From: Methylophilaceae bacterium 11 | GTDB taxonomy: Bacteria > Pseudomonadota > Gammaproteobacteria > Burkholderiales > Methylophilaceae | Length of the DNA: 64,000 nucleotides | Reading direction: 5' to 3' | NCBI GenBank assembly: GCA_000525025.1 | Contig: JCKJ01000001.1 | Span: 310,001-374,000, forward strand | In this document: positions 25,522 to 28,403 of the stretch, piece by piece | Layout of the letters: each line of letters starts with the position of its first letter | How positions within the stretch are numbered: position 1 is the first letter of the stretch | Notes under the pieces: generated by a model | Database searches by the model: none | The model's input: only the letters and a program-made list of their open reading frames with translations | What the model was told of the DNA's origin: nothing | Program-made: the position numbers and the translations under genes

Positions 25522-26580
25522 ATGAGTAAGTATTGGAGCCCAATCGTACACCAGCTGACACCTTATGTGCCAGGCGAGCAGCCTAAACTCACTAACTTAG
25601 TCAAACTGAATACCAATGAAAACCCTTATGGTCCAAGTCCTAAGGTGATTGCTGCATTGCAGGCAGAGGCGGCAGAGACGCTGCGCTTGTATCCGGATCC
25701 AAATTCTGACCGGTTAAAAACCGCGATTGCCGAATATCATGGACTGCAAAACAATCAAGTGTTTGTGGGCAATGGTTCGGATGAAGTGCTCGCACACGCT
25801 TTTCATGCGCTGTTTCAGCATGAGCAACCTCTATTATTCCCAGATATTACTTATAGCTTTTACCCGGTGTATTGTGGCCTGTATGGTATTGAATATGCGC
25901 CAATTGCGCTGAATGAGCGCTTTGAAATCAACATCGACGACTATTTGCGGCCTAATGGTGGCATCATTTTCCCTAACCCGAATGCACCTACTGGCATCCC
26001 GCTCGCATTGTCAGAAATAGAGCGCTTACTTAAAGCGAATCAACATTCGGTGGTGGTGGTAGACGAGGCCTATGTCGACTTTGGTACAGAGTCTGCGGTA
26101 CAGTTGATTCAGCAATATCCTAATTTGCTGGTAACACACACGCTTTCTAAAGCGCGCTCGCTTGCAGGTCTGCGGGTAGGTTACGCACTTGGCCATCCGG
26201 ATTTGATTGAGGCGTTGGTTCGAGTGAAAGATAGCTTTAACTCCTACCCGATAGACCGTTTTGCCGAAGCCGGTGCCGTAGCGGCGATGCAAGATCATGC
26301 CTATTTTAACCAAGCTTGCGCGCAGGTCGTGGCTACACGCACCCATTTAATTAAAGAGCTGCAAGCCTTGGGGTTTGAAGTGCTACCATCGGGCGCTAAT
26401 TTTATTTTTGCTCAACATCCTGCGCACGCAGGTGATGCACTCACCGCCAAGCTGCGAGAGCAAAATATCATTGTGCGGCACTTCAAAAAACCATCACGTA
26501 TTGCACCATATTTACGGATTACCATCGGCACCGATGCGCAATCAGAGTATCTAGTGAATGCATTAAAATCAATTGTTTAG
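25522..26580 (+). CDS. hisC: Histidinol-phosphate aminotransferase
   Basis: This PLP-dependent class II aminotransferase has [23 protein letters not shown], the PNPNAPTG segment, VVDEAYVDF and the PLP lysine in [17 protein letters not shown]. The ATG at 25522 is chosen over an upstream TTG at 25513 and gives 352 residues. It is the last gene before the hps transcription unit; the remaining his genes resume at hisB. Confidence 0.95.
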
Positions 26581-26682: not shown

Positions 26683-26791
26683 GCGAGAATGTACAAAACG
26701 TGCAAATGGTATTTTGTAAAATTTAATTCTACATACTACAAAATATTAAATTTTTAATCGAATATTGAGCGAGTTCGGAGGAAGAAGCATC

Positions 26792-27673
26792 ATGGCACAA
26801 ACCCAAATGGCATTAGATTCACTAGATTTTGACGCAACAGTTGCATTAGCGGCTAAAGTTGCTCCACATGTGGACATTTTAGAAATCGGTACACCTTGCA
26901 TTAAGCATAACGGTATTGAATTACTTAAGACTTTACGCGCTAAATTCCCAAACAACAAAATCTTAGTTGACTTGAAAACAATGGATGCTGGTTTTTATGA
27001 GGCTGAGCCTTTTTACAAAGCTGGTGCAGACATCGTGACAGTATTGGGTACAGCAGATATCGGTACAATCAAAGGCGTAATCGACGTTGCTAACAAATAC
27101 GGCAAACAAGCACAAGTTGACTTAATCAACGTTGCTGACAAAAAAGCCCGTACATTAGAAGTTGCTAAATTAGGCGCACACATCATTGGCGTACATACTG
27201 GTTTAGACCAACAAGCTGCAGGTCAAACACCATTTGCTGACTTAGCATTAATCACTGGTTTGAAAACAGGCGCTAAAGTATCTGTTGCAGGTGGTGTAAA
27301 AGCCGCAACTGTAAAACAAGTGGTAGATGCAGGTGCAGATATCGTAGTAGCAGGCGCAGCGATTTACGGTGCAGCAGATCCAGCAGCTTCAGCAAAAGAA
27401 ATTACTGGTTTAGCACACGGTGCTAGCGCATCAGCAGGTGGTTTTAAATGGTTGCCTTGGGCAATCGCAATCGGTGCAGCATTGTTAGTGTTGTCTTTAT
27501 TGAACAATAAAGCACCAGAAGAAGCAGCGGCAGAAGCGCCAGCAGCAACTGAGCAAGCGGTAGAAGCAGCTCCAGCTGAAGCGGCACCTGCAGAAGCAGC
27601 ACCAGCCGAGGCTGCGCCAGCAGCTGAAGCGGCTCCGGCAGAGGCAGCACCTGCAGAAGCAGCAGCACAATAA
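26792..27673 (+). CDS. hps: 3-hexulose-6-phosphate synthase with C-terminal membrane helix and PAEAA tail
   Basis: Condenses formaldehyde with ribulose 5-phosphate to hexulose 6-phosphate, the fixation step of the ribulose monophosphate cycle. ATG 26792 follows GGAGGAAG by 7 bases and gives 293 residues. Residues 1 to about 208 are a complete HPS barrel of the OMP decarboxylase superfamily, with the DxKxxD motif (D60, K62, D65), LEIGTPCIKHNG and VAGGVKAATV. HPS normally stops here, at about 210 residues. Instead a Gly/Ser/Ala linker leads to a hydrophobic helix (about 218-237, FKWLPWAIAIGAALLVLSLL), then NNK and an acidic Ala/Pro/Glu tail of PAEAA repeats (about 241-293). It lies between hisC and hisB with its own promoter and terminator. 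No phi (hexuloisomerase) gene is adjacent. Confidence 0.95.
   Translation: MAQTQMALDSLDFDATVALAAKVAPHVDILEIGTPCIKHNGIELLKTLRAKFPNNKILVDLKTMDAGFYEAEPFYKAGADIVTVLGTADIGTIKGVIDVANKYGKQAQVDLINVADKKARTLEVAKLGAHIIGVHTGLDQQAAGQTPFADLALITGLKTGAKVSVAGGVKAATVKQVVDAGADIVVAGAAIYGAADPAASAKEITGLAHGASASAGGFKWLPWAIAIGAALLVLSLLNNKAPEEAAAEAPAATEQAVEAAPAEAAPAEAAPAEAAPAAEAAPAEAAPAEAAAQ
27572..27667 (+). repeat. PAEAA-coding tandem repeat in hps
   Basis: Six consecutive coding units of five or six residues (PAEAA, with one PAAEAA and a final PAEAAA) fill the end of hps. Synonymous codons vary between units (CCA/CCT/CCG, GAA/GAG, GCA/GCG/GCT/GCC), so the peptide repeat is kept while the DNA copies have diverged. 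Confidence 0.85.
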
Positions 27674-27690
27674 TCGATTATTCGATTGAA

Positions 27691-27717
27691 AAGCCGACCG
27701 GTGGTCGGCTTTTTTAT
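27691..27717 (+). terminator. Terminator of hps
   Basis: A perfect 9-bp GC-rich stem AAGCCGACC (27691-27699) / GGTCGGCTT (27703-27711) with a 3-base loop is followed by TTTTTATTT, 17 bases past the stop. It insulates hps from hisB. Confidence 0.93.
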
Positions 27718-27809
27718 TTGCATTTTGCCAGCGTAGCGCTGTTTAGGTTAAAATGCTGTTAAATGATTGATTATCATAATTTTAGTTTGTAATTTTTTAT
27801 AAAGATGAC

Positions 27810-28403
27810 ATGGCTATGCGTCAAGCAGAAATATCCCGCAATACCTTAGAGACACAAATCACGGTTTCCATTAATCTCGATGGGTCGGGCGTTTCGCAAT
27901 TTAATACTGGTTTAGGCTTTTTAGATCACATGCTGGACCAGATTGCGCGTCACGGCATGATGGATATTCAAGTGCAGGCGAAAGGTGATTTGCATATTGA
28001 TGCGCATCACACGGTAGAAGACATTGGCATCACATTGGGCCAAGCTTTCTTAAAGGCATTGGGAGACAAGAAAGGCATTAACCGCTATGGTCATGCCTAT
28101 GTGCCATTGGATGAAGCATTGAGTCGCGTAGTGTTGGATTTGTCAGGCCGTCCCGGCTTGGAATTTAGCTGTGAATTTACGCGCGCCGCCATTGGTGAGT
28201 TTGATGTGGATCTGATCCATGAGTTCTTCCAGGGCTTTGTCAATCACGCACTGGTCACCTTGCATATTGACAATCTCAAGGGGCATAACTCGCACCACCA
28301 AGCGGAGACGATTTTTAAGGCGTTTGGCCGTGCTTTGCGCATGGCAGTGACGCATGACCCACGTATGGCAGGCATTATGCCATCCACCAAAGGCAGCTTA
28401 TAA
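27810..28403 (+). CDS. hisB: Imidazoleglycerol-phosphate dehydratase
   Basis: This 197-residue monofunctional IGPD shows the duplicated metal-binding histidine motifs [25 protein letters not shown] and [13 protein letters not shown]. An in-frame ATG two codons later (27816) is an alternative start. It heads the second his block and, because of the hps terminator, should have a promoter of its own in the AT-rich stretch at about 27720-27800; no convincing hexamer pair was found there. Confidence 0.96.

Follow-up and report, generated by a model that had tools for sequence, protein, structure and literature searches.

One hexulose-6-phosphate synthase paralogue of Methylophilaceae carries a C-terminal appendage suggestive of membrane tethering

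3-Hexulose-6-phosphate synthase (HPS) forms dimers and is usually regarded as a soluble enzyme, and its second copy in the methylotrophic Methylophilaceae has seemed redundant. The solved stand-alone soluble HPS, 3ajx (207 aa), ends at its catalytic barrel, without helix or tail. HPS-HPI fusions (9lj9, and those in genomes G729 and G837) likewise bear a C-terminal addition, but this is a second enzyme and not a membrane-type module. The HPS of Methylococcus capsulatus was reportedly found to be particulate in early work, its activity sedimenting with membranes; the HPS sequences read outside the family carry no appendage of the kind described here. Classical tail-anchored proteins have about 30 residues or fewer after their helix, and membrane targeting of the MinD/FtsA kind uses a short cationic amphipathic helix at the extreme C-terminus, with a flexible linker before it.

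Two hps loci have been described in Methylophilaceae: the histidine cluster contains the first, and the second belongs to an H4MPT cluster together with HPI and transaldolase (PMC4109929). They are the same two loci as those treated below; the section of that paper on the loci is silent on C-terminal extensions, and a search of it for the terms C-terminal, transmembrane and extension gave 0 uses. The known facts thus concern the enzyme and its two loci, and the open-access literature searched held no mention of a tail or anchor on HPS, a weak absence because subscription papers lay outside the search. The relevant passages of PMC3728764, PMC4109929, PMC11978286, PMC8879981, PMC7588473 and PMC5120137 likewise contain none. 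Synthetic methylotrophy is concerned as well, because the hps copies of the family differ at the C-terminus; a Methylobacillus flagellatus hps has been used in E. coli, with the copy unspecified in the passage concerned (PMC7588473).

The window analysed here is a 64,000-nucleotide stretch from Methylophilaceae bacterium 11 (contig JCKJ01000001.1, positions 310,001 to 374,000). Its hps gene occupies 26792-27673 (+), an open reading frame of 293 aa with an ATG start and zero internal stops on translation, and a ribosome-binding-like stretch, GGAGGAAG, recognised by eye, lies 7 bases before the ATG at 26777..26784 (+). Residues 1-206 (26792..27409, +) correspond to the catalytic barrel: NCBIfam TIGR03128 (RuMP_HxlA) covers residues 5-206 with 249.9 bits against a cut-off of 200, and the top ranks of a fold search are 3f4w (TMt 0.92) and 3ajx (TMt 0.93), the latter aligning with residues 4-205 at 46% identity. 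Residues D60, K62 and D65, which we take to be the DxKxxD active-site motif of the OMPDC superfamily, are invariant in 47/47 aligned sequences. By family match and fold, the barrel is a complete 3-hexulose-6-phosphate synthase, as the first-pass annotation, which let it end at about residue 208, had recognised.

Unlike 3ajx, the window protein continues past the barrel. A Gly/Ser/Ala linker (residues 207-219; 27410..27448, +) leads into a hydrophobic helix (residues 220-238; 27449..27505, +), the proposed membrane anchor, followed by an acidic Ala/Pro/Glu-rich tail (residues 239-293; 27506..27670, +). The helix sequence, WLPWAIAIGAALLVLSLLN, is the most hydrophobic 19-residue stretch of the C-terminus in a hydropathy scan, and its LPW core is conserved in relatives. 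AlphaFold2, supplied with an alignment of 47 family sequences, predicted a confident barrel and a helix at 221-238 (block pLDDT about 75), with low confidence at 213-218 and 240-293 and predicted disorder (pLDDT 32-38) from 240 on. The linker, hydrophobic segment (218-240) and 53-residue tail proposed earlier were correct within a few residues, and the observation of a tailed HPS is confirmed. With 55 residues after its helix, the protein falls outside the classical tail-anchored type.

The barrel and the tail have a similar codon bias (GC3 0.27 and 0.26) that is unlike that of the his genes (hisC 0.46, hisD 0.48, hisB 0.53), which argues that the tail belongs to the hps gene. The earlier judgement that the extension is in frame, with the same codon use, and not a frameshift therefore stands, and an intrinsic-terminator-like stem follows at 27688..27714 (+; 12 pairs, 6 G-C, T-rich run next). 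The tail-less hps copy of the same genome has a GC3 of 0.32. From its codon bias, the window gene looks strongly expressed; promoter-like sites near it showed no excess (3 versus a shuffle mean of 3.4). An antisense open reading frame of 119 residues overlies the tail (27364-27723, -) and is probably a by-product of repetitive codons.

A histidine cluster, which the first-pass annotation had missed, surrounds the gene, with hisG, hisD and hisC upstream and hisB, hisH, hisA and hisF downstream (NCBIfam); the direct neighbours are hisC (25525..26580, +; TIGR01141, 307.7 bits) and hisB (27810..28403, +; NF002106, 373.1 bits). Relatives show a median distance of 226 bases from hisC to hps (n = 110) and of 151 bases from hps to hisB (n = 111); within 120 bases downstream of the his-linked hps, 56/113 have a terminator-like stem, versus 1/113 in one single-base shuffle. 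By this spacing, the his-linked hps looks like a separate unit inside the his cluster. The first-pass annotation had advised a search for a second, tail-less hps, and one is present in the same genome at C1:1483591-1484220, beside genes for 6-phospho-3-hexuloisomerase (TIGR03127) and transaldolase (TIGR00874). Its barrel is 88% identical across residues 1-210, and it has neither helix nor tail. We refer to the hpi-linked product as HPS1 and to the his-linked one as HPS2. A HisA-like open reading frame, identified by eye, adjoins the hpi-hps-tal cluster at L002:10-786 (+).

Among 187 Methylophilaceae genomes, 142 were examined; the other 45 belong to the two streamlined genus groups and have 0 or 1 HPS match each. 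The genus group of the window was taken as Methylophilus, and counts refer to distinct rows of open reading frame plus context (n=183). All 114 his-linked rows carry a C-terminal appendage (59 of a transmembrane or TM type, 55 of an amphipathic type, 0 bare), whereas all 68 hpi/tal-linked rows are bare, with 0 tailed; the one further row is unplaced and tailed. Classes were assigned by script, TM by a 17-residue tail window above 1.6 with a tail above 45 residues and amphipathic by an FGW-like motif, and L234 (LLGWLKKLFS) was moved by eye from the remaining class to the amphipathic one. A set of 80 named loci, which overlaps the 183 rows, gives the same picture: 79 of them yield 80 open reading frames, comprising 64 his-linked ones that are all tailed (47 TM, 17 amphipathic) and 16 bare hpi/tal-linked ones (0/16 tailed), and the 80th, L134, is amphipathic without a neighbouring probe gene. 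The last 23 genomes added 16 more his-linked rows, every one with an appendage, and 14 hpi-linked open reading frames plus 2 fragments, all without, part of these hpi-linked rows having been counted earlier. L377 ends inside the helix at a contig end, and L367, L383 and L385 are likewise cut. By these counts, the division holds family-wide: one hps copy bears an appendage and the other is bare. The extension, which was to be sought in HPS homologues, is thus conserved in many Methylophilaceae species and not peculiar to this genome.

Tailed copies also occur without an adjoining his probe, in G032, G204 and G104 (14, 14 and 6 kb read) and, on short or cut contigs, in G093, G029 and G102, which suggests that the appendage tracks the paralogue and not the his cluster. 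The tailed copy is absent in 7/142 genomes examined, namely G034 and G036, which are streamlined and closed with one contig each, and G011, G094, G125, G182 and G209, which are 74-91% complete; since two of the seven are closed, the copy appears dispensable in streamlined relatives. In 8/8 streamlined genomes inspected, only about 70-80 bases separate the hisC match from the hisB match. At one locus of an incomplete genome (L376, G181), a TM-type hps has tal on its upstream side and hisB on its downstream side; this is probably an assembly chimera that joins two nearly identical barrels, or else a real recombinant.

In the 59 TM rows, the best 19-residue hydropathy ranges from 1.67 to 2.66 (median 2.31), and 30-110 residues (median 53; 55 in the window) follow the helix. 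These tails have a net charge of -3 to -21 and consist of 44% Ala, 17.5% Glu and 13.5% Pro, with no Cys, and the flanks ASAGG, K, LPW and often KK are conserved. The window protein has no N-terminal signal room and one C-terminal helix (AlphaFold2, 221-238), yet the Kyte-Doolittle mean of this helix, 1.85, does not stand above the most hydrophobic barrel windows (maximum 1.87 over 183 rows), and 10/59 TM rows, the window's included, lie at or below that maximum. The predicted TM segment is set apart by the absence of charges, by the conservation of its flanks and by its position beyond the fold, and less by mean hydropathy. Mean Lys/Arg counts are equal on either side of the helix (1.58 versus 1.56), so charges alone leave the topology undecided; the Asp/Glu means are 0.02 on the barrel side versus 2.22 on the tail side. 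In six Methylophilus pairs, dN is below dS in the barrel, in the helix segment (dN 0.024-0.054, dS 0.287-1.189) and in the tail (dN 0.055-0.242, dS 0.545-1.288), the dN of the tail being above that of the barrel.

A profile of the helix found HPS2 in 22/61 genomes, always with an E of 3.2e-14 or better; nothing else in these 61 genomes matched better than E 0.0019. Five weak matches were opened, and three held an open reading frame; these presumably encode one peptidase and two proteins resembling signal peptidase II. As a donor family for the helix module, Pfam and NCBIfam offered weak matches alone (best E 0.0074 and 0.0047, respectively), to small membrane proteins and peptides. The single other match of the HPS2 tail in the window's genome is a small predicted lipoprotein (E 0.0074). 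This lipoprotein (MTRSALLAALLALALTAC...; L003:1489-1716, +; C1 about 2359382-2359609), with signal and lipobox assigned by eye, has a mature part made almost entirely of PAEAA repeats, as in the HPS2 tail, and PAEAA-type repeats also occur in several sister genomes. Weakly, this lipoprotein is in keeping with a periplasmic spacer role for the HPS2 tail. Some Methylotenera tails (L070, L078, L101, L370) end in a GLVGAAKDATGKA-like motif and are not plain Ala/Pro/Glu.

In other genera, the his-linked HPS ends in a short amphipathic helix such as GGLFGWLKKLFS. The commonest endings among the 56 rows of this form are SGGLFGWLKGLFS and TGGLFGWIKKLFS, with 9 each, and FGW and KLFS are very constant within it. 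Six typed variants have a hydrophobic moment of 0.28-0.54, and the charge of the ends is +1 to +2; in the model of this form, the helix is of low confidence, with pLDDT under 50 across most of 213-222. MinD/FtsA helices resemble this end by description, whereas the window's own form would be a span instead. A DNA pattern for the amphipathic end occurs a single time in each of 53/187 genomes, with 0 occurrences of the reversed control pattern, and 20/20 fetched places are HPS ends. The 187-genome pattern scan and the 61-genome helix profile thus revealed no tag common to other proteins for either module. A divergent HPS (about 66% identical) with an amphipathic end lies away from his and hpi genes at L226:6335-7030, L227:6332-7030 and L394:1609-2328.

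The barrel and the appendage have evolved apart. A barrel-only tree of the 183 rows, built by a quick method and with 14/148 inner branches strongly supported, interleaves tailed and bare copies: the bare label changes 15 times, at least 4 of them forced by strong branches, the TM label 6 times (2 forced) and the amphipathic label 17 times (5 forced). In G100 (L192:4992-6789, -; the same genome as L128), a single his cluster holds two neighbouring hps genes that are identical over their first 629 bases, beyond which one has an amphipathic end and the other a helix and tail. The interleaved tree and this tandem together show that the appendage is independent of the barrel. In G022, the genome's own two copies are 83% alike at third codon positions, against 70.5% and 71.5% for the best same-locus partners of these copies in other genomes. 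Most of the 56 genomes in this comparison show the opposite, a copy being closer to the same locus of another genome (median within-genome third-position agreement 63%). Conversion between copies is thus occasional.

With two unlike membrane-binding devices on a single paralogue, tethering to the membrane is the best reading of the appendage, and we regard a membrane association of HPS2 as probable on sequence grounds. The first strand of the barrel starts at residue 3, leaving no room for a signal peptide, and the sugar-phosphate substrate that HPS requires, ribulose 5-phosphate, is cytoplasmic, so the barrel is expected to remain on that side. The helix at 220-238 would hold HPS2 in the inner membrane. 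With the barrel inside and a single span, the acidic tail would extend into the periplasm and act there as a flexible spacer, a role that would fit its disorder and its length range of 30-110 residues. Many other genera would tether the same paralogue more lightly, by a cationic amphipathic helix lying against the membrane surface, and HPS1 would be the soluble isoform. Methanol and methylamine dehydrogenases are periplasmic and produce formaldehyde on the outer side of the inner membrane, so an HPS held at the membrane would be the first to encounter it; HPS2 would fix the formaldehyde arriving from these dehydrogenases and keep the level of free aldehyde near the membrane low. Soluble subunits could be recruited there through mixed HPS1-HPS2 oligomers.

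A membrane-tethered isoform that captures formaldehyde at its entry is, in our view, the best explanation overall and a reasonably probable one, although formaldehyde fixation at entry, taken by itself as the purpose of HPS2, is a tentative proposal with somewhat less than an even chance, and docking to a dehydrogenase is unlikely. The membrane tethering put forward by the first-pass annotation gained a second device on the same paralogue, while the helix hydropathy within the barrel range counts against it, and the earlier interpretation is partly supported as a whole. A rule by which one copy carries a membrane-type anchor would offer a testable role for the second hps, and it is relevant to the way in which cells cope with a toxic intermediate produced on the outer side of the inner membrane. 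An extended version, which we consider improbable, is a membrane-spanning formaldehyde relay, in which the acidic periplasmic HPS2 tail, or the membrane face in the amphipathic form, would hold the barrel under methanol or methylamine dehydrogenase and mixed HPS1-HPS2 oligomers would bring HPI, formaldehyde being fixed during its passage across the membrane. It would add that genera swapped anchors on a barrel sometimes kept alike by inter-copy conversion.

HPS2 might instead be soluble or loosely peripheral, its appendage being a tag by which it docks to HPI, to a further RuMP enzyme or to itself, and the hydrophobic helix a stronger version of this tag. The constancy of FGW and KLFS is what a docking site would show, short amphipathic helices such as this one bind proteins too, and hydropathy is modest in some TM rows; however, the about 19 uncharged residues of the TM rows, followed by 30-110 disordered ones, are hard to fit, and a swap between unrelated devices suits membranes better than one protein partner, so that we consider this reading rather unlikely. 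HPS2 could also be membrane-bound for another reason, either as an isoform for formaldehyde stress or dissimilation that shields membrane proteins, or because the anchor only sets the place of storage. The gene forms a unit by itself within the his cluster, so its regulation may differ from that of the hpi-linked copy, but its strong codon bias (GC3 0.27) suggests abundant expression and not rare stress use; we give this possibility a small chance.

Short amphipathic C-terminal helices after Gly-rich linkers are typical of shell cargo tags; nevertheless, the amphipathic pattern is confined to one protein, and shell genes were found in 0/187 family genomes in both searches (PF00936 for microcompartments and PF04454 for encapsulins, with positive controls present), so that a cargo role in a microcompartment or encapsulin is very improbable and nearly excluded. 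A frameshift artefact or neutral low-complexity drift, to which the repetitive, length-variable tail with its dN above that of the barrel might point, is ruled out for practical purposes by the conservation and uniform composition of 59 distinct open TM rows, by tail dN below dS and by a codon bias equal to that of the barrel.

A sample of 398 genomes from the phylum contained, beyond the family, just 29-38% identical relatives, in 7 genomes, and the 188 records from a search for plasmid-borne HPS included none with at least 80% query coverage, all being below 60% identity. A class sample of 369 genomes (E 1e-40) contained 5 genomes besides the window's with an HPS, at 59-67% identity; of their HPS places, 9 are stand-alone and end at the barrel, and 2 continue into an HPI-like domain, as judged by eye. 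In G837, three hps genes stand at an exact spacing of 5,189 bases (L353, L357 and L360; C1 3513213, 3518402 and 3523591), and a fourth is fused to an HPI-like domain. We read this as a recent tandem amplification.
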